This document shows, piece after piece, positions 16,474 to 34,898 of a stretch of DNA of 64,000 nucleotides. Source of the DNA: an uncultured Thiothrix sp. (lineage in GTDB: Bacteria > Pseudomonadota > Gammaproteobacteria > Thiotrichales > Thiotrichaceae); the NCBI RefSeq assembly GCF_937873765.1, contig NZ_CALMZC010000056.1, positions 1 to 64,000 on the forward strand. The letters are read 5' to 3'. Below the pieces are notes generated by a model. The model saw nothing but the letters and a program-made list of their open reading frames with translations. It was not told the DNA's origin and did no database searches. Both the position numbers and the translations under genes were made by a program. Each line of letters opens with the position of its first letter. Within the stretch, counting starts at the first letter, position 1.

Positions 16474-16524
16474 GCTTCTTCAGGTGCAGCATGACAAGTG
16501 TTAGTCGATCAATAGGAGGCAGCG

Positions 16525-17103
16525 ATGTGGGATAGTATCTGCTCCTTACTTCTAAACTTCAGTGTTCAGCTCGCCGCTTGCCAAGTTGCTACTCCGAGTT
16601 TAAATGGCTATGTTGAAACCGAAGCCTTACACATATCCGCCACCACCAGTGGGCGCATCAAGCAAATGTATGTGAATACTGGCGACCCAGTGGCTAAAGA
16701 TCAGCCCTTATTCACCTTAGACTCTGAAGCGATTCGCTCCCCCAAAATAGCTCAAGTGGAAAAGCGTTATTACCAAGCGGAAGAATGGGTGAATGCAGGT
16801 ACGCCCGTTTTAAGCTTGATTGCCCCCGATCAATATAAAATCCGCTTTTTCTTACCAGAAATCGCTCTTGGTAGCCTTAAAGTAGGTGATCCACTCCAAT
16901 ATGAATGCGATGGCTGCCCAACGATACAACAAGCCACGATTCGCTTTATTGCTAACTCAGCCGAATACACACCGCCTGTACTTTATACTAAAGAACAACG
17001 CGCTAAATTAGTCTATCTCGTTGAAGCTAGCCCCGCAGACACCAGCCATTTGCATGCGGGACAGCCTGTGAGTATTTGGCTCACTCCTCCAGCTACTCAG
17101 TAG
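16525..17103 (+). CDS. Short HlyD/YbhG-like periplasmic adaptor lacking the coiled-coil hairpin
   Basis: 192 residues. A hydrophobic N-terminus ends in LAAC (Cys19), suggesting a lipoprotein. The first lipoyl half (GYVETEALHISATTSGRI to DPVAKDQPLFTLD) runs straight into the second half (AEEWVNAGTPVLSLIAPDQ), then a beta-barrel (KIRFFLPEIALGSLKVGD). YbhG-like relatives are about 330 residues, with a long helical hairpin between the two halves. Here that hairpin is missing, but the join is in frame and the protein looks intact. AGGAGG precedes the start. It leads the operon with the next ATPase and permease. Confidence 0.82.
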   Translation: MWDSICSLLLNFSVQLAACQVATPSLNGYVETEALHISATTSGRIKQMYVNTGDPVAKDQPLFTLDSEAIRSPKIAQVEKRYYQAEEWVNAGTPVLSLIAPDQYKIRFFLPEIALGSLKVGDPLQYECDGCPTIQQATIRFIANSAEYTPPVLYTKEQRAKLVYLVEASPADTSHLHAGQPVSIWLTPPATQ

Positions 17104-17105
17104 CC

Positions 17106-18056
17106 ATGAGCAGCTCCAGCGAATACGCGATTGAAGTTGCAAATCTCACCAAGCGCTTTGGCGATAAAGTGGTGGTTGATCAATTATCCATGCAGGTGCG
17201 TAAGGGGGAAATTTACGGATTTCTAGGCCCGAATGGCTCTGGCAAAACCACCTCGATTCGGATGATGTGTGGCTTATTAACCCCCGATGGTGGAACAGGA
17301 CAAACTTTAGGCTTAGATATTCTCTCCCAAGCCGCCGACATCAAACGCGAAGTCGGCTATATGACACAGCGCTTTGGCTTATACAGCGATTTAAGCATTC
17401 GGGAAAATTTGGACTTTGTAGCACGCGTTTATGCCATGGATCAACGCAAACAGCGGGTGAATACGGCCTTAGAACGTTTAGGCTTAGTCGCACGTCAACA
17501 GCAATTAGCCGGTAGTTTATCCGGTGGCTGGAAACAACGTTTAGCCCTCGCTGCTGCGCTTTTACATCAACCTCAATTACTGTTATTAGATGAACCAACC
17601 GCAGGGGTTGACCCACAAGCACGACGTGATTTCTGGGAACAAATTCATCAACTAGCCACTGAGGGGATTACTATTTTAGTCTCAACTCACTACATGGATG
17701 AAGCGGAGCGTTGTCATCGTTTAAGTTATATTGCCTATGGACGCTTGTTGGCAACCGGCACACCGCAGGAACTCATCGAGCAAAGTGGTTTACAAACTTG
17801 GACGGTATCAGGTGCTGCCCTGTCTGAATTGAGCAAGCAACTCCTTGCACTATCGGCTGTTGATATGCACACCCAATTTGGTAATGCCCTGCACATTAGC
17901 GGCAAAGATCCACAGGCTTTAGCCCAAGCTTTACAGCCTTTTCAAATTGCTTATCCCCACTATCAGTGGTCAGAAGGTCAGCCCACGCTTGAAGATGTGT
18001 TTATTTATCTGATGCAGCAAGCCACCGATAATTTTCAAACTGCAGGCAAGACATGA
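17106..18056 (+). CDS. ABC exporter ATPase (YhiH/YbhF type, single domain)
   Basis: 316 residues from MSSSSEYAIEV. Walker A is GPNGSGKTT, signature LSGGWKQRLALA, Walker B LLLLDEPTAGVD and switch LVSTHYMDEAER. A C-terminal regulatory part follows. The layout of adaptor, ATPase and permease matches YbhGFSR/YhiI-like exporters of drugs or cations, but this ATPase has one nucleotide-binding domain where YbhF has two. It begins two bases after the adaptor stop and overlaps the permease by four bases. Confidence 0.9.
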   Translation: MSSSSEYAIEVANLTKRFGDKVVVDQLSMQVRKGEIYGFLGPNGSGKTTSIRMMCGLLTPDGGTGQTLGLDILSQAADIKREVGYMTQRFGLYSDLSIRENLDFVARVYAMDQRKQRVNTALERLGLVARQQQLAGSLSGGWKQRLALAAALLHQPQLLLLDEPTAGVDPQARRDFWEQIHQLATEGITILVSTHYMDEAERCHRLSYIAYGRLLATGTPQELIEQSGLQTWTVSGAALSELSKQLLALSAVDMHTQFGNALHISGKDPQALAQALQPFQIAYPHYQWSEGQPTLEDVFIYLMQQATDNFQTAGKT

Positions 18057-19177
18057 GCTGGCGACGCTTATGGGCGATGATGCTCAAAGAGTTTATTCAA
18101 TTGCGCCGCGACCGACTGACTTTCGCCATGATGGTCGGAATTCCAATCATGCAATTGCTCATGTTTGGCTATGCGATTAATACCGACCCTAAGCATCTCA
18201 ACACCGTTTTAGTAGTTTACGATCAAGGCCGTTTAACGCGGAGTCTGGCGCAGGCCTTACAAAATTCCGGCTATTTTCAGATTGTCAATAATGATGCAAA
18301 TGCGCAAGTAGCGGCTGACATGCTCGCTAACGGTGAGGCGCAATTTGTTTTGACCATTCCGGCGAATTTTGAACGTGATCTCATTCGTGGCGGTTACCCC
18401 AGTTTATTACTTGAAGCTGATGCGGCTGACCCAGCGGCGACGGGCAATGCCATTGCTAGCCTCCAATCCTTAATTCAATCAGCCTTACGCCATGACCTCA
18501 ATGGAGCCTTAGGCTATTTAGCGCCTCCCACTCATAGCTTTGAATTACGGATTCACCGCTTATATAACCCTGAAGGGATCACTCAATACAATATCGTGCC
18601 GGGACTTATGGGGGTGATTCTCACCATGACTATGATTATGATGACCGCTTTAGGGATTACCCGCGAAGTCGAACAAGGCACGATGGAGAATCTCCTAGCC
18701 ACCCCAATCAAACCTCTAGAAGTGATGATTGGTAAAATCGCTCCCTATATTTTGATTGGCTATGTACAAGTAGCAGTGATTCTACTGATGGCACGGATTT
18801 TATTTAATGTGCCTTTTGTGGGCAGTTTGGGCTTATTACTATTCAGCGTAATGGTGTTTATTTTTGCGAATTTAACTATCGGCATTACCATTTCTAGTAC
18901 GGTGCGTAACCAGACTCAGGCGATGCAAATGAGCTTTTTCTTTTTGCTGCCTTCTATTTTACTATCTGGCTTCATGTTTCCGTTTCGAGGCATGCCACAC
19001 TGGGCACAAATCATTGGCGAAGTTTTGCCAAATACCCATTTTTTACGTTTAGTGCGAGGCATTATGCTTAAGGGTAATGGCTGGCAGGAAGCTTGGCCGC
19101 ATCTACTACCGCTTTGTGTATTTATTTTAGTCGTGCTGCTGATTGGGATCAAAAAATTCAGAAAGACTTTAGATTAA
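18053..19177 (+). CDS. ABC-2 type permease (YhhJ/YbhR type)
   Basis: 374 residues. An N-terminal membrane helix (FAMMVGIPIMQLLMFGYAI) is followed by a large periplasmic domain (about 45-170) and five C-terminal helices. Family motifs NIVPGLMGVILTMTMIMM, REVEQGTMENLLATPIKPLE and PSILLSGFMFPFRGMP are clear. It forms the membrane part of the exporter with the preceding ATPase and adaptor. The three genes form one tight operon. Substrate unknown. Confidence 0.9.
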   Translation: MSWRRLWAMMLKEFIQLRRDRLTFAMMVGIPIMQLLMFGYAINTDPKHLNTVLVVYDQGRLTRSLAQALQNSGYFQIVNNDANAQVAADMLANGEAQFVLTIPANFERDLIRGGYPSLLLEADAADPAATGNAIASLQSLIQSALRHDLNGALGYLAPPTHSFELRIHRLYNPEGITQYNIVPGLMGVILTMTMIMMTALGITREVEQGTMENLLATPIKPLEVMIGKIAPYILIGYVQVAVILLMARILFNVPFVGSLGLLLFSVMVFIFANLTIGITISSTVRNQTQAMQMSFFFLLPSILLSGFMFPFRGMPHWAQIIGEVLPNTHFLRLVRGIMLKGNGWQEAWPHLLPLCVFILVVLLIGIKKFRKTLD

Positions 19178-19222
19178 CAATAACAAGCCTTTCCAAAAAG
19201 TTACTGCTAAACAATTTAGGCT

Positions 19223-19321
19223 CTAAGCCACTAACCGAATCAGGCCACCCACAATCACTAACATGGCTATGATAAGAATATAAACCAACATCCGCGCACT
19301 GGCCAAGGGTTCTTTGTGCAT
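19223..19321 (-). CDS. 32-residue single-helix membrane protein
   Basis: The minus-strand frame starts MHKEPLASARMLVYILIIAM and continues through LVIVGGLIRL. It is one hydrophobic helix with charged ends. A strong ribosome site, AAGGAGG (19327-19333), lies five bases before the ATG, which is the main reason to call it. No family is recognised. It converges with the exporter operon and is followed upstream by the trailer end of the CRISPR array. Confidence 0.6.
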   Translation of the reverse strand: MHKEPLASARMLVYILIIAMLVIVGGLIRLVA

Positions 19322-19425
19322 GATAGCCTCCTTGTACTTGATGGCTATACTGAATTTTTGTAGTTCTTATTGAGGATGAGGTTTTTTAGTTGCTCCCTCT
19401 CCTGCTAATCAGTATATGCCTCGGT

Positions 19426-19444
19426 CAGTTAGAATCTCTAACTG
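19426..19444. other. Hairpin beside the distal end of the CRISPR array
   Basis: CAGTTAGA and TCTAACTG form a perfect 8-bp stem with a 3-base loop, 36 bases outside the last (degenerate) repeat. It lacks a T-run. It could mark or end the array transcript, which runs leftwards. Confidence 0.35.
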
Positions 19445-19480
19445 GCTGATGAGAGGCTAATTGACCTCCTCCCCTCCCCG

Positions 19481-22400
19481 CGATTCATCCCCACAAGCGC
19501 GGAGAACATTATCTGCACCCTAAAGCATCGAAAATCTAGCCCGGTTCATCCCCACAGGCGCGGGGAACATTGGAAGGTCATGCGCTTAAATCGACCTGAA
19601 CCCGGTTCATCCCCACAGGCGCGGGGAACATCTGGTTTGGTATTCGCCCGTGATTGCCCATTGCGGTTCATCCCCACAAGCGCGGGGAACATTTCGGTAT
19701 AACGTACCAGCTTTGCTTGTATCCCGGTTCATCCCCACAAGCGCGGGGAACATTATGCGGGTGGGAATGCGGTCATTCAAACTACCGGTTCATCCCCACA
19801 AGCGCGGGGAACATTTCGGTATAACGTACCAGCTTTGCTTGTATCCCGGTTCATCCCCACAAGCGCGGGGAACATGGACAAAGACGAAGACAGCCCTAAG
19901 CTGAGCATGGTTCATCCCCACAAGCACGGGGAACATCTCTACTGATTGACTTATTGACCCTAAGTCATCGGTTCATCCCCACAAGCGCGGGGAACATTCC
20001 GGGAAGACGAAGAGGAGCGATAAGCAGTCCGGTTCATCCCCACAAGCGCGGGGAACATAACCATTGATGAGTAATAAACTATATTTACTACGGTTCATCC
20101 CCACAAGCGCGGGGAACATTAAAAAATAGCCGCATCTCTTTTGCTGTTGATCGGTTCATCCCCACAAGCGCGGGGAACATAGCTGTGAAACCTACTACTA
20201 AACCCCAGTAAACGGTTCATCCCCACAAGCGCGGGGAACATACTCCACAGATAACCCCTGCTATCGCAAGGGTCGGTTCATCCCCACAAGCGCGGGGAAC
20301 ATGTTGATTGCTTGTCTTTCAGTGTTGATAAGCGCGGTTCATCCCCACAAGCGCGGGGAACATGAGGGATAAAACTAAACTACGTGCGGTCATTGCGGTT
20401 CATCCCCACAAGCGCGGGGAACATGTTGCAGCATCCCCTTCTCATCAAACGACCTACCGGTTCATCCCCACAAGCGCGGGGAACATCCAGTTCAATCAGC
20501 ACGGCCTTAATGCGCTCAACGGTTCATCCCCACAAGCGCGGGGAACATAGCAAAGCGGGAATTGCTGGGATTATCACCTACGGTTCATCCCCACAAGCGC
20601 GGGGAACATAAGCAGAATCAGAACAAGAGGCATGGAATCTGCGGTTCATCCCCACAAGCGCGGGGAACATGGTATTCACCCAATCTTCGAGTGAGCCGAT
20701 GCCGGTTCATCCCCACAAGCGCGGGGAACATAGCAGCATGCCCGCCACGGGTAATGGTTCGGGCGGTTCATCCCCACAAGCGCGGGGAACATTAGTGATT
20801 TCTATTAGCTTGTTCTTGGCGATGCGGTTCATCCCCACAAGCGCGGGGAACATTTGTGGTGAGACTTAGCCCTTGGTTAGCTAGGCGGTTCATCCCCACA
20901 AGCGCGGGGAACATAGTCCATAACTAGTCAATATAGCGATGAAGCGCGGTTCATCCCCACAAGCGCGGGGAACATCAGCTCAACCCCCTCTTCATGCAAG
21001 AGGCAACCGGTTCATCCCCACAAGCGCGGGGAACATCTCTAACCTTGCCATATAGTTTAGAGCCTGTGCGGTTCATCCCCACAAGCGCGGGGAACATAAA
21101 GACTGGCAAGCGCGAGGGGCTAACAGATGCGGTTCATCCCCACAAGCGCGGGGAACATGATTTTACGATTGATAGCACTGGCGCTATCAGCGGTTCATCC
21201 CCACAAGCGCGGGGAACATCGACGCACTGCAAGTTGAAGTCGACGCGGCTACGGTTCATCCCCACAAGCGCGGGGAACATGGGTCAATCAGCTTCTTCAA
21301 CCCTTACCACCGCGGTTCATCCCCACAAGCGCGGGGAACATAGCGGCGCTGATCGAGGCTCAAATCTGGACGGCGGTTCATCCCCACAAGCGCGGGGAAC
21401 ATATTTTGATTTCCTGTAGACGTGCCAGCGCATCCGGTTCATCCCCACAAGCGCGGGGAACATTCCCCTGCATCAAATGGGGGGTGTGGCATGAGCGGTT
21501 CATCCCCACAAGCGCGGGGAACATAGGAGAATTTATTGGGGTAAAGACTACATATCTGGTTCATCCCCACAAGCGCGGGGAACATAGATCAAATGCTAGA
21601 AAATTGCCCATAATGTCCGGTTCATCCCCACAAGCGCGGGGAACATATGTTGATGGAAGGTTTGACAGCGACTGGTGACGGTTCATCCCCACAAGCGCGG
21701 GGAACATCGTCAGCCAGCACATCGTAATACTTAACCCGCTGGTTCATCCCCACAAGCGCGGGGAACATAACTGCGTGACAATATCCCCAGTGTTATCGGC
21801 TGGTTCATCCCCACAAGCGCGGGGAACATCGGTTTGCTCGACTCCATCCAAAACCGCTTGGCGGTTCATCCCCACAAGCGCGGGGAACATATGGCCGCAT
21901 TCGTACCATTGCATGATGTCAACGGTTCATCCCCACAAGCGCGGGGAACATTGTAACGTGGCTTTGTACGTTACATCGCCTATCGGTTCATCCCCACAAG
22001 CGCGGGGAACATTCCATGCCAGACTCGCCACAGCTTGAACAGGTCGGTTCATCCCCACAAGCGCGGGGAACATAACCATCTTGATGAGCACTGCGTTGGA
22101 TCCAGCGGTTCATCCCCACAAGCGCGGGGAACATTTCATACATTTCCCACTCGCCGGGGGTGTTTACGGTTCATCCCCACAAGCGCGGGGAACATGGGCT
22201 GGATTTATCGTCGCGTGGGTGGTTCGGCGGTTCATCCCCACAAGCGAGGGGAACATTTATCAGTCTCTTCAGATGCCTTAAGGTCAAACGGTTCATCCCC
22301 ACAAGCGCGGGGAACATATGCCGCTATCCAAGCTTTATGAATGGTATGACGGTTCATCCCCACAAGCGCGGGGAACATCTGTATCACGACATTCATCGTG

Positions 22401-25400
22401 CCACTAGCGCCGGTTCATCCCCACAAGCGCGGGGAACATCGTTAAGATGCTAATAATTATAAATATAATCGCGGTTCATCCCCACAAGCGCGGGGAACAT
22501 ACTGTGAGAGACACGGCTCACAATATACTCGCCGGTTCATCCCCACAAGCGCGGGGAACATATCGTCTGTGAGTGTATTAGGTTGATCCATGTCGGTTCA
22601 TCCCCACAAGCGCGGGGAACATGACTGGGCGAAGCTGAAAGACCAGCAAGAGCGCGGTTCATCCCCACAAGCGCGGGGAACATAAAAGGTAAGAGCAATA
22701 ACGATGAATCTAGAGCGGTTCATCCCCACAAGCGCGGGGAACATTGCGCCAATGTAGCGATTGATCAGCAACCAAGCGGTTCATCCCCACAAGCGCGGGG
22801 AACATGTGCTGAGCTGCTCGAGCCTGTTGCTGCATCACGGTTCATCCCCACAAGCGCGGGGAACATTTGCAGTGCGTGCGACGCCCGATATTGGATCTCG
22901 GTTCATCCCCACAAGCGCGGGGAACATCTTGGCTGCTAACAGCGACAATTTTAATTTGGCGGTTCATCCCCACAAGCGCGGGGAACATTGTGTTCATTAA
23001 TATCATCTATCACAGGCATTCGGTTCATCCCCACAAGCGCGGGGAACATAAAAGAGCCAGTATGATTACCTGTGCTCAACACGGTTCATCCCCACAAGCG
23101 CGGGGAACATTTGCCAATCCTAATCGAAAGTCATAAATCTGACGGTTCATCCCCACAAGCGCGGGGAACATTCGTCGAATTGCCGTTCGGTAAATATCCC
23201 AAGCGGTTCATCCCCACAAGCGCGGGGAACATCTTGTGCGGTGATATGCCATTGTCTCGCATGGCGGTTCATCCCCACAAGCGCGGGGAACATTTACCAA
23301 CGCGATTAGCTTGATCTACTGCCTGCGGTTCATCCCCACAAGCGCGGGGAACATTGGTTAAGCAGTTGCAGGCAGAGGCTAACATGCGGTTCATCCCCAC
23401 AAGCGCGGGGAACATGGCTTATCTCTAGTACTGGTCGACTAGATCGGCGGTTCATCCCCACAAGCGCGGGGAACATTTGATATTTGTTCTAGTTCCATTT
23501 TTATTTACCGGTTCATCCCCACAAGCGCGGGGAACATACTCCTAATGATTTAACAATACTAATGACGTGCGGTTCATCCCCACAAGCGCGGGGAACATTT
23601 GGCCCTCAAGGGGTTGATGGTGTACAAGGGCGGTTCATCCCCACAAGCGCGGGGAACATCTAAACCTAATTAACACACAACACTAAACCCGCGGTTCATC
23701 CCCACAAGCGCGGGGAACATGTTAGCACAATCAATCGCCATAGAAAAATCACCGGTTCATCCCCACAAGCGCGGGGAACATCTGACCTTGCTCACCACGC
23801 TGACCTTGTGAACCGGTTCATCCCCACAAGCGCGGGGAACATGGATAGTTGAATGATTCCTAATCGGCTAAATCCGGTTCATCCCCACAAGCGCGGGGAA
23901 CATAGCGCCCATCCAACTAATCGTTAATGTTGATAAGGTTCATCCCCACAAGCGCGGGGAACATAAGTACTGCATCAGTTCTCGGTGTTGAATTTACGGT
24001 TCATCCCCACAAGCGCGGGGAACATAAAAGAGAATGGGTAAGAGTAGGGAGAAAGGGCGGTTCATCCCCACAAGCGCGGGGAACATGAAGGTAGTTAATA
24101 ATAACCCGGATATGCAAACGGTTCATCCCCACAAGCGCGGGGAACATGCAATAGCAAATAGTTGCATTTTTGTATAGGGCGGTTCATCCCCACAAGCGCG
24201 GGGAACATTTTCGTCAGGCTACGCACAATCCATTGTCGATCGGTTCATCCCCACAAGCGCGGGGAACATAACTGAGAGGGGTGTTGCATAATGAGAACTG
24301 AAGGTTCATCCCCACAAGCGCGGGGAACATATCACCGTATCGCTCGATATACAGAGCGCAGGCGGTTCATCCCCACAAGCGCGGGGAACATGCTCAATAT
24401 GGAGCATCACTGACCGGTGGAAACGGTTCATCCCCACAAGCGCGGGGAACATCTGACACTCTCGGCGCGGTCAACCTTGCTGCCCGGTTCATCCCCACAA
24501 GCGCGGGGAACATCACTAAAGCCGCATGATTTGCATTTAAGGCAGCGGTTCATCCCCACAAGCGCGGGGAACATGAATTAATTAATCGCAAACATTTATC
24601 ACTGTATGGTTCATCCCCACAAGCGCGGGGAACATCTCTACCACAGCCGCAACCACAGCACGCTCCACGGTTCATCCCCACAAGCGCGGGGAACATTGAA
24701 CAAGAGGGGCTTAAAATTCAACAAGAGTCGGTTCATCCCCACAAGCGCGGGGAACATGGCAGCGCTGCTGACCGCCCGAAAATTCGCAACGGTTCATCCC
24801 CACAAGCGCGGGGAACATTAATGCTTAGGGTTCCGCGTTCAAAAAATCGGCGGTTCATCCCCACAAGCGCGGGGAACATATTCGCAACTTACGAGTAATT
24901 ACTAACGATGCCGGTTCATCCCCACAAGCGCGGGGAACATACCGCTGTGATGCGTTCTGTTGGCAAAAACCCCGGTTCATCCCCACAAGCGCGGGGAACA
25001 TCGCCAGAAAAAACAGAATACACGGTAATAAGCCGGTTCATCCCCACAAGCGCGGGGAACATTATGGAGTTTATGCTGGTGGCGCTGTAACCATCGGTTC
25101 ATCCCCACAAGCGCGGGGAACATATACAATTTTGAGTTGCCTATAATGACGTGAGCGGTTCATCCCCACAAGCGCGGGGAACATCGAAACGCATCATCGC
25201 TCTCGCCTATCAAACGCGGTTCATCCCCACAAGCGCGGGGAACATAAAAACGGGCGGATTCGGTACCATAAAGCAGCCGGTTCATCCCCACAAGCGCGGG
25301 GAACATCGCGAGCAGGAAGCGATGCAGCAGCAGGTTATCGGTTCATCCCCACAAGCGCGGGGAACATATCTACCTCGCCTATGCAGTCGCATTTGCCTGC

Positions 25401-25611
25401 GGTTCATCCCCACAAGCGCGGGGAACATACAGTATTAGTTGGCGTTTTTCTGCGTGAACGCGGTTCATCCCCACAAGCGCGGGGAACATTCAATATCATC
25501 GAGTGTCCAAAGACCATGAGGCGGTTCATCCCCACAAGCGCGGGGAACATGCCAACTACTGATGTGGACGTAAAGCCACACGCGGTTCATCCCCACAAGC
25601 GCGGGGAACAT
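19481..25611 (-). CRISPR. Type I-E CRISPR array, 101 repeats and 100 spacers
   Basis: 29-bp repeats with core CCCCACAAGCGCGGGGAAC recur every 61 bp (32-base spacers). The start positions drift by only two bases over the array, because spacers 16 (20425-20457) and 17 (20487-20519) are 33 bases. That gives 101 repeats. In the transcribed (minus) sense the repeat begins ATGTTCCCCGCGC and ends GATGAACCG, a normal I-E repeat whose stem is cut by Cas6e. Repeats at the left end are degenerate (first with CGGAGAAC, next two with CACAGGCG), so the left end is old and the right end, next to cas2, is the leader side. Spacers at 19693-19724 and 19815-19846 are identical. Confidence 0.98.
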
Positions 25612-25693
25612 ACCAATCATAACTTATTGGTTTTAAAAAAGAAAAATGGCCACCCAAAATCTACCGATTATTTTGCCTATTTTTCCTACATTG
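25612..25693 (-). promoter_or_regulatory. CRISPR leader with IHF-like site
   Basis: This AT-rich stretch separates cas2 from the first repeat and should hold the array promoter and integration signals. Read on the minus strand, AACCAATAAGTTA (25620-25632) matches the IHF consensus WATCAANNNNTTR at all but one fixed position. It starts eight bases from the repeat, close to the E. coli I-E IHF site needed for spacer integration. ACCAAT/ATTGGT also form a small inverted repeat here. Confidence 0.65.
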
Positions 25694-25996
<303 letters not shown>

Positions 25997-26923
25997 CTAC
26001 TTACTCCTATGCCCAGCCTCTCCTAGCGACTCCGCTGGAGGAATCGCAGGGGGCACAGATTCAGGGGGCATTTCAGGCGGGGTAATCTCACCAGCCGCTA
26101 AGACCTCTTCAATCAGCGGAATGATCTTTTTTAAAATCTTTTGTTCTCGAAACACATCCCGACAGGCTAAACGCACTTGACGCTCCGCATCATGTGGATT
26201 TTGAGCGGCAATCTTAAAAGCAATCGGAACTACCGAATCAAACTTAAAAATGTCTGCAATATCATACACAAAGGATAAAGGCTTGCCCCAATGAATAAAA
26301 CCAATCGCTGGGGCATAACCTGCTGCCAACACTGCGGCCTCAGTAATCCCATATAAACAAGAAGTCGCGGCACTCATACACCGATTGGGTACATCACTCA
26401 CATCCCACGCATCCGGATCATAGTTACGCCGCTTCCAAGTCACCCCATATTTTTGCGCCAATAATTCATAAGTTTTGCGCACCCGCGCACCCTCAATCCC
26501 ACGTAGTTGTTCTACACTACGCTTGGCTGGAGCTGGCTCACCAAAGCGCAATTCATACATCTTACGTACAACCTTAAGCCGCAAATCATCATCCAAAGCT
26601 AGCTTCGCCTGATACAACAAACGATCCGACCGCGCCCCGCCCGGCTGTCCCGAAGAATACAAACGCACCCCCGACTCACCGACCCACACTAAAAGCGTTC
26701 CCACCTCTGCCGCTAACTTAATCGCCGCATGCGACACCCGTGTCCCCGGCTCTAACAAAATACAGGCAATTGACCCTACCGGAATATGCTTACGCTCGCC
26801 ACGCTCATCAATCAGTACAAAGGCATTATCTTTGACATCAATCTGCCCCATCCGCAAAAACACCATTGACATACGATCTTTCATCATTAAAGGTTTGAGG
26901 GGGAGGAAGGGAGTATCGGCCAT
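25997..26923 (-). CDS. cas1: Cas1, type I-E integrase
   Basis: 308 residues of the Cas1e type. It begins with LKPLMMKDRMSMVFLRMGQI and contains GTLLVWVGESGVRLY. The catalytic domain includes GIEGARVRKTYELLAQKYG (acidic metal ligand), IGFIHWGKPLSFVYDIAD (His and Asp ligands) and KFDSVVPIAF. It inserts new spacers at the leader end together with Cas2. Length is normal. A Pro-rich tail ends the protein. Confidence 0.96.
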   Translation of the reverse strand: MADTPFLPLKPLMMKDRMSMVFLRMGQIDVKDNAFVLIDERGERKHIPVGSIACILLEPGTRVSHAAIKLAAEVGTLLVWVGESGVRLYSSGQPGGARSDRLLYQAKLALDDDLRLKVVRKMYELRFGEPAPAKRSVEQLRGIEGARVRKTYELLAQKYGVTWKRRNYDPDAWDVSDVPNRCMSAATSCLYGITEAAVLAAGYAPAIGFIHWGKPLSFVYDIADIFKFDSVVPIAFKIAAQNPHDAERQVRLACRDVFREQKILKKIIPLIEEVLAAGEITPPEMPPESVPPAIPPAESLGEAGHRSK

Positions 26924-26934
26924 GGGTTAGGCTC

Positions 26935-27072
26935 TTAATCTACTGAAAACATATCAGTAAGAATTTGCTGAACACCGCTCAGCAATATAGGAAGCTCCTC
27001 GCCAATCACACTCCAAATAATTTGCAAATCAATACCAAAGTACTCATAAAGCTCCTGAGACTGATCAGGCAT
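26935..27072 (-). pseudogene. Internally deleted HEPN toxin
   Basis: A 45-codon frame starts MPDQSQELYEYFGIDLQIIW and continues EELPILLSGVQQIL. The part from YFGIDLQIIW matches the C-terminus of HEPN (DUF86) toxins, where it normally follows an Arg-x4-6-His active site as in RxxxxHGYFG. About 65 residues including that motif are missing, so it should not cut RNA. The start codon still overlaps the MNT stop by eight bases, as in intact MNT-HEPN pairs. Confidence 0.7.
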
Positions 27073-27358
27073 ACTGTATATCCCTTTTGACTGACTCACG
27101 AACAGAAGGTTTGAGAGTACTCTCAATGCCTAAGTCCACCGTTTTCTGCATATGGGTCTCCAGATAACGCTTCAAACCCAAAAAATTCTTCAACGATTTA
27201 CACTCTGGTAAAAACTCGACCGCAATATCAATATCCGAATCTTCACGTGCGGCATGATGTATATAACTACCAAACAAACCAACGCTAGCAACCCCAAAGG
27301 TTTCAGCCATCTCCAGCTTGTGCGTCCGCAGAAAGGACAGTATCTCATCTTTTGTCAT
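27065..27358 (-). CDS. mntA: MNT-type minimal nucleotidyltransferase antitoxin
   Basis: 97 residues. The nucleotidyltransferase signature GLFGSYIHHAAREDSDIDIAV holds the GSx(n)DxD motif with both Asp metal ligands, and a third acidic position lies in KTVDLGIE. MNT antitoxins neutralise HEPN toxins by adding AMP. The paired HEPN gene is deleted to a stub, so this antitoxin now has no visible toxin. It sits between cas6e and cas1 on the cas strand. A 60-bp duplication covers its start region. Confidence 0.87.
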   Translation of the reverse strand: MTKDEILSFLRTHKLEMAETFGVASVGLFGSYIHHAAREDSDIDIAVEFLPECKSLKNFLGLKRYLETHMQKTVDLGIESTLKPSVRESVKRDIQYA

Positions 27359-27453
27359 ACTAGCTCCTTCATGTACTAGTCACTAACAGTTTAAGGACAG
27401 TATCTCATCTTTTGTCATACTAGCTCCTTCATGTACTAGTCACTAACAGTTTA
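27333..27453. repeat. 60-bp perfect tandem duplication over the MNT start
   Basis: 27333-27392 and 27393-27452 are identical. Each unit holds the first nine codons of the MNT gene, its start codon and its ribosome-site region. The outer copy therefore presents a second start (ATG at 27418) that reads MTKDEILSLNC and stops after 11 codons. Confidence 0.95.
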
Positions 27454-27471
27454 GCGCCGCCCAACCCATAG

Positions 27472-27619
27472 TCAGTATCGCTTTACCAAGAGTAGACCAC
27501 AACCGAAGGCTTTGGAACGCTCCAAGCCTTTAAGCAAAACCTCACGAGTGAACACCTCAGCATCCGTCACTTGCGACTTACCTAGCAAATCAGCACTAGT
27601 AAAAGTACGGTGATTGGGA
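27472..27619 (-). pseudogene. 3' remnant of a second, divergent cas6e
   Basis: Beyond the stop of the intact cas6e, the minus strand in a different frame reads PNHRTFTSADLLG, VTDAEVFTREVLLKGLE and RSKAFGCGLLLVKRY, then TGA. This matches the last 40-odd residues of Cas6e, including the Gly-rich KAFGCGLL loop that also ends the neighbouring intact copy. The rest of this second gene is gone. It looks like the tail of an earlier cas6e left when the present gene was put in its place. Confidence 0.8.
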
Positions 27620-28216
27620 TCATCTAGCTAAAGATAAAAGACCACACCCAAATGCTTTAGCATGACCAATTCCATACTGGAGTAAATCCTGCAAGGCTTG
27701 CGCATTCGCCACCTGTAACACACCTTTGAATGCATAGGGCTGGATTTTTCCCGGCTTTCCACCTTTACGGAAATGCAGCGGCAACTGTTTTTCAACCTCC
27801 ACCATACTCACCAATGCAGCATCAGCCAACTTGCGTTGCAGCCATGCAACTTGCTCTGTTTCATTGATTAGGGGAACACGGCATTTTTTCACTTCGCCCT
27901 TGCTATTCAGCCTACCCTGCTCATCCACAATGGTTTTTACGGGATTGGCGATTAGCAGGAAACGCAACTGGCTACCTTCCAGCACGTTCAACTCAAACAG
28001 TTTGCTTGCCAACAAACGGGCATGTTCAGCTTCTGCTATCGGTTGCCGTTGCGACTGCATCAACACTTGCGCCTGTCGGGATGAAGATTGCTCTACCCGA
28101 AACAGGAAATCGCGTGCCTGATCCGGCGTATCTGGGAAAGCCGCCCACAAGGTACGATGAATTTCATACGGGTTATGCAATTGCTCACCCGACAACAATA
28201 ACCTACTCAGATACAT
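27620..28216 (-). CDS. cas6e: Cas6e, crRNA-processing endoribonuclease
   Basis: 198 residues from MYLSRLLLSG, the usual N-terminus. Upstream in-frame starts are less likely. Features are a RAMP fold with NPYEIHRTLWAAF (catalytic His region), RFLLIANPVKT, LPLHFRKGGKPGKIQPYAF and the terminal Gly-rich loop GIGHAKAFGCGLL. It cleaves each repeat of the array transcript and stays bound to the crRNA 3' hairpin in Cascade. It overlaps cas5 by 14 bases. Confidence 0.95.
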   Translation of the reverse strand: MYLSRLLLSGEQLHNPYEIHRTLWAAFPDTPDQARDFLFRVEQSSSRQAQVLMQSQRQPIAEAEHARLLASKLFELNVLEGSQLRFLLIANPVKTIVDEQGRLNSKGEVKKCRVPLINETEQVAWLQRKLADAALVSMVEVEKQLPLHFRKGGKPGKIQPYAFKGVLQVANAQALQDLLQYGIGHAKAFGCGLLSLAR

Positions 28217-28877
28217 GTGCATTGTCCTTCCCGTAAACGTAAACCATGCGGCTGGCAAATTGGCGCGGCTGATTGGGCAACGGCACATCACGCACCCGGT
28301 GACGCTGTTTATTTCTGCCCGCAATTACTGGCAAATCATCTTCGCTGTAAATGACACCTGCGACTGGCTCAACCAGTTTCAATGCTTCATCCGAATTGAC
28401 GGCCTGTACCCGGCAATCAAACAATGGGCGGGTAATCGGGCAACTACGTCTCCCAAGGAACGGGGTGTAATGGGGTTTGCAGACTGCGGTCTGAAGCGCA
28501 TCCAGTGAATACGCTGCACCTTCTGTGTTCCAAATAGCGACGGTAAAGGCAGCATCCAGCAGGTATTCACGTTGGGTAATGATGGTTTCATGCGATTTCA
28601 GGCCAACATAATCTTCCCGTGCATCCTTGACCGTGTGGTAGTCGGTCATTTTGATGACACTCCACCGCGTTTCATCTTGCCGCACGGCATACAGAAAACT
28701 GTCTGCCAAGGCTTGTTGCTGTTTCCGGTCATTACGATCAATACCAAGACAAGCCGCCAGCAAACCAGCCAAGGCACTACGGGTCGGGAAGTTGGTAGAG
28801 GGGCGTAAGCCTTCAAAGGTATGTTCCCCCCATGCCTGCATGACTCCCTGCAATTTCAGGATCAAATGGTCACGCAT
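28203..28877 (-). CDS. cas5e: Cas5e, Cascade crRNA 5'-handle subunit
   Basis: 224 residues. The Cas5/CasD N-terminus LKLQGVMQAWGEHTFEGLRP is followed by TRSALAGLLAACLGI, with HTVKDAREDYVGLKSHET and YTPFLGRRSCPITRPLF in the middle. It caps the 5' handle of the crRNA in Cascade. It starts two bases after the cas7 stop and overlaps cas6e. Confidence 0.95.
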   Translation of the reverse strand: MRDHLILKLQGVMQAWGEHTFEGLRPSTNFPTRSALAGLLAACLGIDRNDRKQQQALADSFLYAVRQDETRWSVIKMTDYHTVKDAREDYVGLKSHETIITQREYLLDAAFTVAIWNTEGAAYSLDALQTAVCKPHYTPFLGRRSCPITRPLFDCRVQAVNSDEALKLVEPVAGVIYSEDDLPVIAGRNKQRHRVRDVPLPNQPRQFASRMVYVYGKDNAHVSE

Positions 28878-28879
28878 GA

Positions 28880-29977
28880 TTATGCTCCGTTCTGGCGTAC
28901 CCAGTTTTTCAGTGCTTCCAATGAATCCTGCTTGGTTATACCTGCCGGAATGTCCAGATCATCCGCCAAGGTAAATTCGGCGCATTGTTCATTCAAGCTG
29001 TAACCCTTGTGGGTTTTGCTCCAATAATTGTTCAGGTATTCCAATGAAGGCTTAAGGAAACCACCACCTTTACCCAGTTTGACGGGACTTTCAAACGCAT
29101 TCGCCAATGAAACGGGCAAATCCGCGAAGGACACCAACGCCAAATCTGCCAGATTGTGGGCAGCAAAGGTTTGTTGTTTGGCGGATGGCACAACGGTTGC
29201 CAACATGTGTAAGAGATGGGCTGCTACTTCCAACGCCTGTTCACGGCTTGCGCCCCCCATGTTTTCTTGTAACTGCCCGATATTCAAGCTGGCATAACGG
29301 TAGAAAACACCGCTGGAAAACTCCTGTGTATCCAAATGCCCTGACCCCAGTTCCTGCAAATCATCTACCGCCGTGAACCAGTCAATGTCAGAATCACTGA
29401 CTTCGTGCGTAGTAATGGCGTGAGCGACAGCTAACGCGCCATCCACTTTGCCAAATTCACTCATCAAGCCGGAAGTTGCCATACGCCCAGACAAAGCAAT
29501 GTCTACACAACTAGCTAATGCTTGGCGCATCGCTTCGGTCGAATCTTTCAGTTTTTTCTTGATAGCTTTCTCATCTTCGCCTTTGTCTTGTGCCTGTTTT
29601 ACCTGTTCACAGAACCATGCAATTTCTTCCAATGCCCACGGTGCAACCGCATCACCTTTTTCGTCACCTGCATTCAAATCCTTACCGGAAATCAGGCCAA
29701 TGGTCTGAGTCACCAGCGCGGCATCGTAACGCCCGTTCAAGTATTCAATCGCCTGTTTGCTCAAATCAGCAATGTGTTTAGTGCGAATGCTGCTTTGCCC
29801 CACATTGGCTTGGTAGTAATCACTCTTACGCATAGCGCGTTTGAGGCTTTGACTGGAAACCCGTACCCGACGTTTACCGCCAAACACTGCGTTTTTCTGC
29901 ATATTCATATCGTCGCGATTCAAGCAAGATGGGCTATGGGAAATCAGTACATGAAAGTTGATAAAATTGTGTGACAT
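28880..29977 (-). CDS. cas7e: Cas7e, Cascade backbone subunit
   Basis: 365 residues of the CasC/Cse4 family. It begins [20 protein letters not shown] and contains [37 protein letters not shown] and a C-terminal region rich in conserved hydrophobic blocks. Six copies form the crRNA-binding spine of Cascade. Normal length, between cse2 and cas5. Confidence 0.95.
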
Positions 29978-29995
29978 GACAAATCCTCGAATACG

Positions 29996-30457
29996 TTAAT
30001 CTTTCTGGTTCAGAACGAAATCTTCCAACAGGCTGCGCTTTTCCCGCAGACTCCATCGCCAAAGTTGTGTAGCCATTTTTTGCCAGCTTACTTCCGGCTC
30101 TACCTGTTTCAGTAAACGGCGAAGCTGGGTAAGATCATTGGGTGAATCGGCGCGGACAATCTGAAACAAGCGTTTATCACTGATTTTGCCGGATAGAGCG
30201 AAGGCTTTTCCCAATGAGTTTTCACTCTTATCAGTCACATGATTGATGAGAAACACCAACCGCTGCCAACGCTCTTTGTCCCAAGGTTTCAAGTCAGCTT
30301 GCCAGCCAAAAGGCTCAACCAAACGGTAAAAAGCGGGCAAATCCAGCAACTCATCCATTGTGACAACCCGACGTATATCGGCAGTTGCCCCCGGTCTTTT
30401 GTTCAGTGATTCCCATGCAGCATAAAAGCCTGCAAAGTTGGGGAGTTCATTACTCAT
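29996..30457 (-). CDS. cse2: Cse2 (CasB), Cascade small subunit
   Basis: 153 residues, all helical in appearance, with RPGATADIRRVVTMDELLDL, AFYRLVEPFGW and SPNDLTQLRRLLKQVE. Two copies stabilise the target R-loop in Cascade. The start overlaps the cse1 stop by four bases (ATGA). Confidence 0.92.
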   Translation of the reverse strand: MSNELPNFAGFYAAWESLNKRPGATADIRRVVTMDELLDLPAFYRLVEPFGWQADLKPWDKERWQRLVFLINHVTDKSENSLGKAFALSGKISDKRLFQIVRADSPNDLTQLRRLLKQVEPEVSWQKMATQLWRWSLREKRSLLEDFVLNQKD

Positions 30458-32004
30458 GCTGCATCCTCAGTAGGTGGGTTGACACGAATTTCTTTGATGT
30501 GCTTTTGCAAGCTCCGACGGGTAATCGCCAATGTGCGAAACAGTTCGGGGTCATGTTCGTAAGGGGTGGTCAGCTCGGTGAAAATGGCTTCACAGATTTT
30601 TTTCAGCCCCGAATCCAGTGTGATGAAAGTCGGCAAGGTATTACTGAAATCAATATCCGCTAAGGCTTTGGTCATCAAGTCTTCCGAACGCCGATAGAAT
30701 TGCACTTCACCGACTTCCTGTAATTTCAAACCTGTACCTTTGAGCTTGCGATCTTTTTCCTTGATGCCTTCCGCACATACAAACAAGACTTTGCGTAAGG
30801 CTGTTTTGTATTTCAGGCCGTGGGCAACCAATTCATGGACTTCTTTCGCGTGGGTTTCCCAACCCTGACTCAGGGTCAAGACCTCGTGACGACGCTCGAT
30901 AATCGCTGCCTGATTATTACGATAACCACCCACCAGCAACTCAAATTTACCCGCGTGGTTGGGCAGGTACTTTTGTATTTGCCGGATAACCATCGCTGGC
31001 ATCTGCCCCTGTTCGCTCTTGCCTAGTTCTGACAAATCACGTTTAACGACGTAGCGGCTTAACTGTGTCCATGCCGGAATGGATTGGGTAAACCCAACAT
31101 AACGCGCTTCTGGTTTGCCTTGCTTGACTGTAAACACCTTCGGGGAATGCGGATGCTCCCACATGCCATCAATGGTGTAGTTGAATTTTGCCTTGTTGAA
31201 TCCGGTAAACAATTTGTCAGCCGTGTGTCCGCAACAACTGCATTGCCCTGACGTTTCGGGAGGAGACAAGGCAATATGCCCCGGTTGCCATAACAAGCCA
31301 CGCAAGAAACCGATGCTGCGGGCAGGAATCGTGGCTTTATCTTTGATCGGTTCAACCCATGTCGGCGGCTGGTTAGCCTTTGCTTTCCAATCAGGAACAT
31401 ATTCGTCCAGTGACTCCTGACTCAATATGTTTAACCAGATGGTCGAACGTAAGTCAGCCCCTTGCGCAAACGTAGAAGCAGGGCAACTGCCACGAATGCC
31501 AAACTTGAATCCACCACCAAAACTGGGTGAGTTATTGGCAAGGTTATACAAAGCAATCGCCACACAGCCGAAACACAAACCTTTTGCCAAGTCTGGCTCA
31601 TTCACAAAACGACTATTGGTAGAACTGTTCAAACCCGCCAACAGCTTGTCCATCGGCGTGGGGTCTTTGGCAGCAACTTTTTTGACCTGCATAAATGGAT
31701 AGTCAGGATGATCAAGCTGAAACCAAGCCTGATATTGCTTAACTCCAACGAGATAATCGTCCTCACTCAAGTGCTTGGTCTGTGCCAACCTCGCCCGCTC
31801 CCACCACTGCGCTCCATTCTTGGGTGCAAACAATACTTGCACGATACAGATTATTAACTGCAAAGCCGCCAACTCCATATCATCACGCGGCAATGCCAGC
31901 TCCCAACGCTCACTCCCACATAACAGCATTTGCAGGCTGATCTGTCGCGCTGCCCCACTTGCTTGTGGTCGAACAGGTATCCAGCTATCGGTCAATAAAT
32001 TCAT
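30454..32004 (-). CDS. cse1: Cse1 (CasA), Cascade large subunit
   Basis: 516 residues from MNLLTDSWIPVRP, the standard CasA N-terminus. The chosen ATG overlaps the cas3 stop by four bases. NSRFVNEPDLAKGLCFGCVAIALYN and a CxxC pair in SGQCSCCGH are visible, followed by a C-terminal four-helix bundle. It reads the PAM and recruits Cas3. Length is normal. Confidence 0.94.
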   Translation of the reverse strand: MNLLTDSWIPVRPQASGAARQISLQMLLCGSERWELALPRDDMELAALQLIICIVQVLFAPKNGAQWWERARLAQTKHLSEDDYLVGVKQYQAWFQLDHPDYPFMQVKKVAAKDPTPMDKLLAGLNSSTNSRFVNEPDLAKGLCFGCVAIALYNLANNSPSFGGGFKFGIRGSCPASTFAQGADLRSTIWLNILSQESLDEYVPDWKAKANQPPTWVEPIKDKATIPARSIGFLRGLLWQPGHIALSPPETSGQCSCCGHTADKLFTGFNKAKFNYTIDGMWEHPHSPKVFTVKQGKPEARYVGFTQSIPAWTQLSRYVVKRDLSELGKSEQGQMPAMVIRQIQKYLPNHAGKFELLVGGYRNNQAAIIERRHEVLTLSQGWETHAKEVHELVAHGLKYKTALRKVLFVCAEGIKEKDRKLKGTGLKLQEVGEVQFYRRSEDLMTKALADIDFSNTLPTFITLDSGLKKICEAIFTELTTPYEHDPELFRTLAITRRSLQKHIKEIRVNPPTEDAA

Positions 32005-34643
32005 GCAGATTTCTCCATACCCCATACGGGGTGATAGGTGAACCAAATATCTTTGCTAGAGGCTTTCCAACACTCACCATCTCGTTGCATGGCAAGCCAG
32101 ATACGCCCTTCTTCATCCGATTTGGGCAGAAGCTTTCCCCAACTTTTGGGAACACCCACGGTATTCATGGCTAACGCCTCGGCTTGTTGCCATTCATTCA
32201 AGGACTCCAGAATACTTGAATCAAGCAACTGTTTACTGCTGGCGGTTTGCAAATAGGGAATAACGCTCAAGTTGAACTCGCCATCACGAGTGACAGCACG
32301 GATTTGTTCGTCGGTATCATGCAAGGCAACATCTTTCGCCCACTTGAGCATCTGCCTCGCCAGAATGCGTTTTTCTGCCAACTTTTCTTCAAACAGAGCA
32401 AAACCAGCTTCAACTGCCTCTGGCTCACTACCCCAAGCATCTTCATTGTAAACAGGCTCAATCCAGTCACGGTATGCAGCAGGGAAAGCAATGATCTGGT
32501 CAGGACAGGTTTGCAGTTTTTGAGCAGTGCGCCACATTACGCGGGTATTGCCGTAAATCAGCCCATGCGTGCCGTAGTCATTGCCAACAGGTAATAAAAC
32601 CGTACAACGTGCTGATTCAAAACCTGTCGGGCGAGAACGTTCATGTCGATGTAAACGCCCCATGCGCTGGAACAGCAAATCGACTGGGCAAAGCTGGGTA
32701 ATCAGCCAATCGAAATCAACATCTAAAGACTGTTCAATCACTTGGGTAGCAACCAATATGCGCCCTGTGACCCGCTGACCTTCTGCGCCATAGTGACTGA
32801 GTACTGTTTGCTCTTTTTGCTGGCGGTCGTGCAAGCAATAACGGGCATGGAAAATATCCACCGGAATGCTGGTCTGCCCCTGAAGCTGCCTTGCCAATTG
32901 CTGGGCAACATCGACCAGATTACAAATGATAGCGACCTGCGCCCCTTGTTCAGCCGCCGCAATAATACGCTGGATAAGTGCCACATCCGGCAGCAAACTT
33001 TCACTCTTGTGACACTCGATTTGAACTTGACGTAAGGGCGGTTGCTCATCCTCAGACGGCACGAACGACTGAATTGCTTTACCATTTGACCATGAGATTA
33101 GCGGATAGGGTGAAGGCGAAGCATCTAGCACTGCATCGCCCCCATACGTTGCCAACAACTGGTTTTTCAAGGCTTGTGGCAAGGTTGCGGATAGCAGAAT
33201 GCTCGAACCACCCGCCTCATGCTGCACCCGCAAAACGGCCTCCAGCAAACCATACATGTAGGCATCATAAGCATGAACCTCATCCACAATCAGCACACTA
33301 CGCCCAACCCCAAAACCACGTACAAAACGGTGCTTGACTGGCAATACCGAGACCAACACCTGATCTACCGTGCAAATGCCGATTTGTCCCAGAAAAATAC
33401 GTTTACGGCTTTGCCCCAACCATTCGTTGCACTGCACCCAAGCCTCTTCATTTTCCTGTACCGTTTTCCCCGACTGCTTTATTTTCAGGAAGTTATCGTT
33501 AAAACGGGCATGACCATGCGCCAGAATCAAGTTGGGTTTATCCTCAAACAATTTTGTTGCCAGCTTTTCAAGCCGTTGCAGCATGGCATTAGCAGTCGCT
33601 TGCGTAGGCATGGCAAATACAATGCTGTCAACATGATTATCTGCCAGTAACCGCCACGCATAAGCCAGTGCCATTTCGGTTTTACCTGAACCTGTGGGTG
33701 CTTCAACGATGGTTAGCCCTGATGTAACAGGCAAATCATTGACGAGAGTTTGTAATTGACGCGGCTGATAATCCTGCTTTAACAAGGATTGCATACCAAG
33801 AAATGGCTTCGGTTTGCCATTAATTCCTGCCAAAGCCAAGACTCGCGGTGCATCTTCACGGTATTTCTGCTCAAAATACACCTGTAAGTCAGCTACTTCC
33901 TGAGCCTGATAACAGAAGTTTTCCTCATCCGAGCGCGAACCCAGCCAATCGGCAACCGAACAAAAACCAGCAAGCAAAGGAGAGGGCGGTGGCGGTGTAT
34001 TGTCAAGAGACAAACCAGCAGGTTGCAGAAACAGCCTTTCCAATTCACCCAGCCATGCCAGCCTCGCCGCTTTATCCTGTTCGGCCATTTGAATAGCAAC
34101 ATCACTACGCAAAGACCTTTCAGGCACGGGATGATCAATGGCGTAAACAAAACCATGATGCCCTGTGACCGGTTTGACCCACGCCATCCATGCTTGCTTT
34201 GAATCGTCAACGACCTCAACCAGTTCGACAATATGCATCATCCAGTCAAAATCACCGGATGAATCATCCCCAGCAGTACGATCACGCTCAAACCAGTATA
34301 ATCCAGCACTGCCGTGGTCATAGGTTTTGCAGGCTTCAATGGTTGGCAGGGACAAAGCCGTGTTAACCAAGTCCGGCTGCAAGGCAGCCCAAGCCTTCAC
34401 TGCCTTGCACTGGAAACGAATATCGAATTTGCCGTAATCATGCAGAGCAATGAAAAAGATGACCCATGCCCTCATTTGGACGGTAGACAATTCCCCTGCA
34501 TACTGCATGAAGCTCTTTTGGATAGGGGGGCTTGAATCCCACCAAACACTGGCTACCGCTGCCACATCCAACGAATGATAGGGCAGTAAATGGTAGCTAC
34601 TATCGTCTTTTGATGCCTTACCCCAATAGCAGAAATACGACAT
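32001..34643 (-). CDS. cas3: Cas3 helicase-nuclease
   Basis: 880 residues. An N-terminal HD nuclease (ALHDYGKFD with H68 and D69, later HGSAGLYWF and TGHHG) is fused to an SF2 helicase: Walker A APTGSGKTEMALA, DEVHAYD as the DEAH-type box, SILLSATLP as motif III, and ATQVIEQSLDVDFD and QRMGRLHRHER as motifs V and VI. It unwinds and degrades target DNA after Cascade binding. Both halves appear complete. AAAGGAC lies just upstream of the ATG. It is the first gene of the cas operon. Confidence 0.96.
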   Translation of the reverse strand: MSYFCYWGKASKDDSSYHLLPYHSLDVAAVASVWWDSSPPIQKSFMQYAGELSTVQMRAWVIFFIALHDYGKFDIRFQCKAVKAWAALQPDLVNTALSLPTIEACKTYDHGSAGLYWFERDRTAGDDSSGDFDWMMHIVELVEVVDDSKQAWMAWVKPVTGHHGFVYAIDHPVPERSLRSDVAIQMAEQDKAARLAWLGELERLFLQPAGLSLDNTPPPPSPLLAGFCSVADWLGSRSDEENFCYQAQEVADLQVYFEQKYREDAPRVLALAGINGKPKPFLGMQSLLKQDYQPRQLQTLVNDLPVTSGLTIVEAPTGSGKTEMALAYAWRLLADNHVDSIVFAMPTQATANAMLQRLEKLATKLFEDKPNLILAHGHARFNDNFLKIKQSGKTVQENEEAWVQCNEWLGQSRKRIFLGQIGICTVDQVLVSVLPVKHRFVRGFGVGRSVLIVDEVHAYDAYMYGLLEAVLRVQHEAGGSSILLSATLPQALKNQLLATYGGDAVLDASPSPYPLISWSNGKAIQSFVPSEDEQPPLRQVQIECHKSESLLPDVALIQRIIAAAEQGAQVAIICNLVDVAQQLARQLQGQTSIPVDIFHARYCLHDRQQKEQTVLSHYGAEGQRVTGRILVATQVIEQSLDVDFDWLITQLCPVDLLFQRMGRLHRHERSRPTGFESARCTVLLPVGNDYGTHGLIYGNTRVMWRTAQKLQTCPDQIIAFPAAYRDWIEPVYNEDAWGSEPEAVEAGFALFEEKLAEKRILARQMLKWAKDVALHDTDEQIRAVTRDGEFNLSVIPYLQTASSKQLLDSSILESLNEWQQAEALAMNTVGVPKSWGKLLPKSDEEGRIWLAMQRDGECWKASSKDIWFTYHPVWGMEKSA

Positions 34644-34830
34644 ATTTTCGTCCTTTAAATCAGAATCTACAATTTGGCACTACGACAGAAGAACTAAAGT
34701 TAATTAGCTTAAAGGGCTTAAACTAGGTATTAGTGTCTGTAGCGTTATGGATGTAAATTAATCAGACTCAATAATATAGCTTAGAAATAAGATGAGTTAG
34801 AGAAAGGAGGGGTAAATTTTACATTTTTAC
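34644..34830. promoter_or_regulatory. Upstream region of the cas operon
   Basis: Contains no gene. It is AT-rich and should hold the promoter for cas3 onwards on the minus strand. I could not pick a convincing -35/-10 pair. Confidence 0.35.
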
Positions 34831-34873
34831 AAAAAACAATCAAAGAGATACATGCAATATCAATCTCTTTGAT
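34831..34873 (-). terminator. Rho-independent terminator of the kdsB operon
   Basis: On the minus strand an 11-bp perfect stem (ATCAAAGAGAT with ATCTCTTTGAT, 13-base loop) is followed by TGTTTTTTG. It lies 26 bases past the kdsB stop and ends the exbB-kdsB operon. Confidence 0.85.
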
Positions 34874-34898
34874 CAAGGAGGTATTTTATAAGGTTAAT

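Follow-up and report, generated by a model that had tools for sequence, protein, structure and literature searches.

That effector genes can be replaced in situ while the adaptation module stays in place has been described before (Koonin and Makarova 2019, PMC6452270; Hudaiberdiev et al. 2017, PMC5704561), and the same two sources describe cas6 and the adaptation genes as 'attractors' of exchange. The cases published there belong to the Cas4-bearing subtypes I-A, I-B, I-D and I-U. Within type I-E, Almendros et al. (2014, mBio; via PMC4390879 and PMC12736100) described an exchange of modules in Escherichia coli; according to PMC12736100, the two variants have similar cas1-cas2, their cas3, cas7, cas5 and cas6 show 29-31% identity, and casA is similar in both. 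A further I-E locus for comparison is that of Thiothrix caldifontis (genome G009, taken as DSM 21228; locus L057).

The locus described here lies in the window, the whole stretch of 64,000 nucleotides that was analysed. It resembles the cases of PMC6452270 and PMC5704561 in that adaptation genes, and in the sister genus the flanks too, stay while effectors are replaced, also within a subtype, with boundaries at the nucleotide level; it differs from them in its subtype, in having its joins within the coding sequence of cas3 and cas6e, and in the relic left by the old cas6e. As compared to the E. coli variants, cse1 (26% identity to that of G009) has been exchanged too. The T. caldifontis locus has nearly the same cas1-cas2, the same kind of repeat and a cas6e end matching the relic, but a complete A-type interference operon where the window has a B-type one. 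The observations are best explained, with a probability of about 0.88, by a hybrid I-E locus in which a B-type cassette akin to that of G050 took the place of the interference cassette of an A-type lineage. Effector replacement as such is already described and the window is a clear new instance of it, the recurrence of the join sites being the newer part; a literature search returned no paper on cas6e-tail scars or on joins in these motifs, which is weak evidence of novelty, as most subscription papers lay outside it.

The B-type cassette and the cas6e tail behind it

The Cascades of 80 further loci, fetched by Cas1, form three groups: A, resembling G009; B, resembling the window; and C, resembling neither of them. 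Family matches identify in the window the type I-E gene set cas3-cse1-cse2-cas7-cas5-cas6e-cas1-cas2 with an adjacent array. The interference genes, all B-type and on the (-) strand, are cas3 (32001-34643; PF18019 and helicase domains; B-type from about codon 18 on; 81% identity to G050), cse1 (30454-32046; TIGR02547 and NF007247; 84% to G050 and 26% to G009; start codon uncertain, the listed ORF overlapping the cas3 end), cse2 (29996-30457; TIGR02548; 90% to G050), cas7 (28880-29977; TIGR01869, 342 bits; 95% to G050 and 33% to G009), cas5 (28203-28877; PF09704; 88% to G050) and the intact cas6e (27620-28222; TIGR01907, 176 bits; 82% to G050 and 29% to G009). The interference proteins of the window show 81-95% identity to those of G050, 40-49% to those of G055 and 24-37% to those of G009, G043 and the congener G004.

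Directly behind the intact cas6e and out of frame with it, a frame (LDDPNHRTFTSADLLGKSQVTDAEVFTREVLLKGLERSKAFGCGLLLVKRY, ending in a stop) opens at the stop codon of the gene and extends to about 27474. The fragment comprises ~45-50 codons (limits 27474/27478 to 27618, (-)), and its final codons continue into an inserted block. It is a genuine Cas6e C-terminus and not a chance frame, as evident from PF08798, the tblastn identities and the DNA alignment to G009. The PF08798 match reaches 35.4 bits (E 1.7e-8, profile 182-223 of 223), above the Pfam cut-off of 25 bits; the TIGR01907 match of 34.5 bits (E 2.6e-8) falls below the NCBI whole-protein cut-off of 45.2 bits because the tail alone remains. 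In the whole 4.0-Mb genome, PF08798 matches two places, the intact cas6e and this fragment. By tblastn, identity of the tail reaches 79% with the Cas6e end in G009 and G043, 56% with that in G004 and 43%, over 35 aa, with the intact neighbour. The C-terminal glycine-rich loop of Cas6e (KAFGCGL) is retained; as compared to a full-length Cas6e, ~45 codons are left and the N-terminal catalytic half is absent, so the fragment at 27474-27618 (-) is a relic of an A-type cas6e, not a working Cas6e, and is probably functionless. The earlier note had reported a Cas6e C-terminal fragment past the cas6e stop in another frame, divergent from its neighbour, and had suggested a search against Cas6e proteins; the profile match and the low identity to the neighbour bear this reading out, and the search places the fragment in another Cas6e lineage. 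The span given there, 27472-28216, holds for the fragment part, its remainder being mostly the intact cas6e.

A diverged partial tandem duplication of the present cas6e would accord with the position of the fragment directly behind that gene, and a 60-bp tandem duplication does lie 20 bp beyond it. Such an origin is nevertheless already contradicted by the identities (43% to the neighbour against 79% to the G009/G043 tail), on which a plain duplication of cas6e was rejected, as well as by the small decay of the fragment relative to G009 and by the repeat search, which found no repeat between the intact cas6e and the fragment; it can practically be dismissed. That the fragment encodes a short functional protein under selection is very improbable, even though ~50 codons of open frame show little decay: a start codon of its own is absent near its beginning, the N-terminal half that carries the catalytic residues is missing, and at its end it continues into the inserted block; comparable tails in the loci L116, L122 and L130 measure just 13-14 codons.

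Joins, inserted block and chromosomal setting

DNA homology between the window and G050 starts, by blastn, at 34592, at the cas3 codons for HLLPYHSLDVAAV, a motif of the Cas3 HD domain. The left join region (34551-34592, (-)) was delimited by this start and by alignment with G055, G050, G009 and G043. Before the motif the window and G050 differ and after it they agree, which makes both ends of the operon look resident. At the other end, the homology runs to 27623, the last sense codon of cas6e, and restarts at the cas1 start. For the exchanged block of the window, the right flank is shown by the relic and cas1, while the left one is indicated by the change of similarity in cas3 alone; none of the relatives carried the locus at this site.

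At the right join (27612-27623, (-)), G009 has GGTGATCCCAATC and the window AGATGATCCCAATC. The B-type cas6e ends in a TGA that overlaps TGATCCC of its A-type counterpart, TGAT being common to G050; the TGA of the new gene is the TGA within TGATCCCAATC of the old one, at which place G050 has CCTGATTTT. As read from these alignments, the right join appears to be a splice by short microhomology at the stop codon of the incoming gene, not a homologous crossover inside cas6e, and the TGAT match, merely 4 nt, could have been used for it. The crossover near the cas6e end proposed in the earlier note stands as regards its position, and gives way to such a splice as regards homologous recombination inside cas6e.

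For the lineage of the window itself, we infer the following direction and course of events. The ancestor would have had an A-type operon of the T. caldifontis kind, with cas1-cas2-array behind cas3 to cas6e, and an incoming B-type cassette related to that of G050 would have replaced cas3 to cas6e. The left join would have formed near the cas3 start, at the codons of the HD-domain motif, and the right join at the incoming cas6e stop, spliced into the old cas6e perhaps via TGAT, leaving the last ~45 codons of the old gene as a dead scar before cas1. Either before the swap or after it, an MntA/HepT module would have entered between the scar and cas1.

This inserted block of ~550 bp, recognised by family matches, occupies 26936-27484 (-), limits approximate. 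It holds an MntA antitoxin gene (27065-27358, (-); NTP_transf_2, with MntA NF047752 below cut-off) and a HepT stub consisting of the toxin C-terminus only (26935-27072, (-); HepT-like match); the homologous MntA/HepT pairs of G002 and G033 keep a full-length HepT. A perfect 60-bp tandem duplication, found by repeat search, spans the MntA gene start (27333-27452, (-)). Joined to the cas1 start are the codons AGA GCC TAA (26919-26936, (-)), on a short match probably the last codons of the A-type cas6e. The window has AGAGCCTAACCCATGG before cas1, resembling the A-type cas6e ends AGAGCGTAATCATGG of G009 and AGAGCCTAACTCATG of G026; this match, short as it is, is suggestive of an insertion inside the old cas6e tail. 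The ends of the insert, searched for a target-site duplication, are alike and too diverged to call.

Beyond the insert lie the resident-lineage cas1 (25997-26923, (-); TIGR03638, 380 bits), 87% identical to those of G009, G043, G050 and G055 alike, and cas2 (25694-25996, (-); PF09707), 84-85% identical to those of the same four. In the relatives G009 and G043, the cas6e stop is 2-3 bp before their cas1. Equal likeness of cas1-cas2 to all four genomes, together with Cascades that are unlike, indicates that one cas1-cas2 lineage carries different interference modules. The array (19607-25650, limits approximate, (-)), delimited by repeat analysis and repeat-derived frames, has ~101 repeats of the consensus ATGTTCCCCGCGCTTGTGGGGATGAACCG. 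All cas genes of the hybrid locus are open, and the system presumably works. Type I-E repeats being nearly interchangeable, the resident array could be served by the new Cascade.

The congener G002 lacks such a system, and there 22 bp separate kdsB from the counterpart of the ABC permease gene at 15700-16473 of the window; relative to G002, 16474-34898 is an 18.4-kb insertion between the ABC permease gene and kdsB, containing ABC exporter genes, the array and the cas genes. The swap may therefore have occurred elsewhere. An intact A-type operon at this site was found in no genome of the window's genus, the genomes representing one per species, and since the site is empty in G002, the replacement at this place and its direction are read from the sister genus. 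The window also encodes an integron integrase at 10730-11926 (TIGR02249, 348 bits; cut-off 265).

In situ replacement in the sister genus and discordant histories

In the sister genus (G009, G043, G050 and G055), the interference cassette has been replaced in situ, and the sequence flanking the exchanged block is conserved on either side. The upstream flank is homologous in all four genomes (93-95% identity between G050 and G055, 74-79% from these to G009 or G043); they share 94-97% identity over cas1-cas2 and one identical repeat, GTGTTCCCCGCGTCTGTGGGGATGAACCG, whereas Cascade DNA shows little or no similarity among them. The shared sequence enters cas3 for ~38 codons and ends at HLLP(Y/F)HSLDVAAV. 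The cas6e of G055 is chimeric at KAFGCGL: the DNA of its last 10 codons is 93% identical to G009 and 53% to G050, and upstream of them the identity to G009 is 33-67%. A common array lineage, sought through shared spacers, was not recovered, the four arrays having no spacer in common. Since the identical repeat stands beside three unlike Cascades, one and the same repeat evidently suits Cascades from different lineages; natural hybrids of this kind reveal compatible pairs of Cascade and Cas1-Cas2-repeat.

The A-type operon of G009 is complete, with two extra genes between cas3 and cse1 (L048 4306-6059), one of 387 aa that is OLD-family ATPase-like by eye and one of ~200 aa. No A-type scar was found in the cas6e-cas1 gap of G050 (L046 10896-11344), which holds a 149-aa frame with no Pfam or PADLOC match.

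The histories of the adaptation and effector genes are in conflict. On a quick Cas1 tree of 86 loci, Cascade types change at least 20 times, and 9 changes of the A label are required even when only well-supported branches are counted. Careful trees were built from 27 loci. There the B loci group together on Cas7 (100/100); on Cas1, a single clade of B-type Cascades is rejected (AU p 5e-52), as is a single clade of the six Thiothrix-clade loci on Cas7 (AU p 8e-5). The narrow constraint making the window and G050 sisters on Cas1 was not rejected (p 0.154). Near-identical adaptation genes with unrelated effector modules (among G009/G043, G050 and G055, and in the window as compared to G009) are thus found together with incongruent trees. 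The comparison of Cas1 and Cascade trees had been proposed in the earlier note, which took the cas3-to-cas6e block to come from another I-E system and to form a hybrid with resident cas1-cas2-array; identities and trees support this, and of the outcomes named there as contrary, neither agreeing trees nor a fragment from the same cas6e lineage was found. Codon use of the two blocks, also proposed there and compared as GC and GC3, shows no difference between interference and adaptation genes, so that composition is silent.

Relative to G009, the relic, cas1 and cas2 have pS values of 0.64, 0.69 and 0.63, and the relic a pN of 0.11; relative to G050, pS is 0.46-0.63 for the Cascade genes and 0.68 for cas1. 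A pS of the relic like that of cas1 and cas2, together with its low pN, points to constraint during most of the divergence; over 45 codons, this gives an indication that the swap may be recent when set against the separation of the two genera.

In the reverse direction, a resident B-type locus would have received the A-lineage cas6e tail, cas1, cas2 and array. The fragment itself shows only that the tail and cas1 belong together, and, as the locus belongs to the 18.4-kb stretch inserted relative to G002, neither part can be shown to be native. Against this stand the sister genus, where flank, first ~38 cas3 codons, cas1-cas2 and repeat are kept and the cassette changes, the boundary of the window and G050 at the cas3 motif, which makes both operon ends look resident, and the A-type tails found behind B or C genes, never the opposite; the reverse direction is therefore considered unlikely. 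For the replacement of an A-type cassette by a B-type one, evasion of anti-CRISPR proteins, which PMC6452270 proposes for exchanges of this kind, would be a likely advantage. The locus gives a base-resolution view of a change in the part attacked by anti-CRISPR proteins while adaptation genes and array stay.

Recurrence of tails and joins in other loci

A search of 47 cas6e-cas1 intervals with a Cas6e-tail profile revealed second tails in the window (E 5e-14), L084 (6.5e-9), L130 of Methylolobus aquaticus (1.6e-5), L122 (1.6e-4) and, weakly, L116 (0.045). In L084, L130 and L122 the tails are A-type and lie behind non-A cas6e genes; the interval of L122 also contains cas7, and its gene order differs. 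Both joins recur in a second lineage: between L064 (A) and L072 (B), homology stops at the same cas3 motif and returns at the cas6e end, and L065 and L069 agree with this pair at the cas3 end. In Stutzerimonas/Pseudomonas pairs whose Cascades differ, the point where homology sets in lies no more than about 60 bp from the cas1 start. Swaps can be counted and dated by a searchable signature, namely an additional cas6e tail in front of cas1 or a chimeric end of cas3 or cas6e.

A VRR-like motif ends 49 of 50 A-type cas6e genes and an S-x-A motif 33 of 37 B/C-type genes, counts that describe and do not test, since the motif classes were defined after the sequences had been viewed. Three B-type cas6e genes (G055, L070 and L084) carry A-type ends, and the reverse was seen in none. 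When 36-nt windows are ranked by DNA identity between A and B, the cas3 motif is among the best 2% and the cas6e motif among the best 5%, but cas3 itself contains windows that rank higher, so that selection for swaps of whole modules may equally explain joins at the ends. It is tentatively proposed that I-E interference operons may behave as exchangeable cassettes, with preferred crossovers at HLLPYH[SC]LDVAAV in cas3 and at cas6e KAFGCGL/cas1 start, which would serve as short homology handles between modules of ~30% identity and leave chimeric cas3/cas6e genes or tail scars.

The cas6e-cas1 interval often contains toxin-antitoxin-like genes (MntA, PIN, GNAT, ParE, Phd, HTH), as in L056, L053, L079, L101, L121, L128, L133, L131, L116, L122 and L084; a GNAT gene is common to L128 and L133 despite their differing Cascades. 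A KilA-N domain protein, on which a literature search returned no paper for its position before cas1, precedes cas1 in 21 loci, e.g. L062, L064, L069, L072 and L112. As it occurs with Cascades of all three types, this protein travels with the adaptation side.
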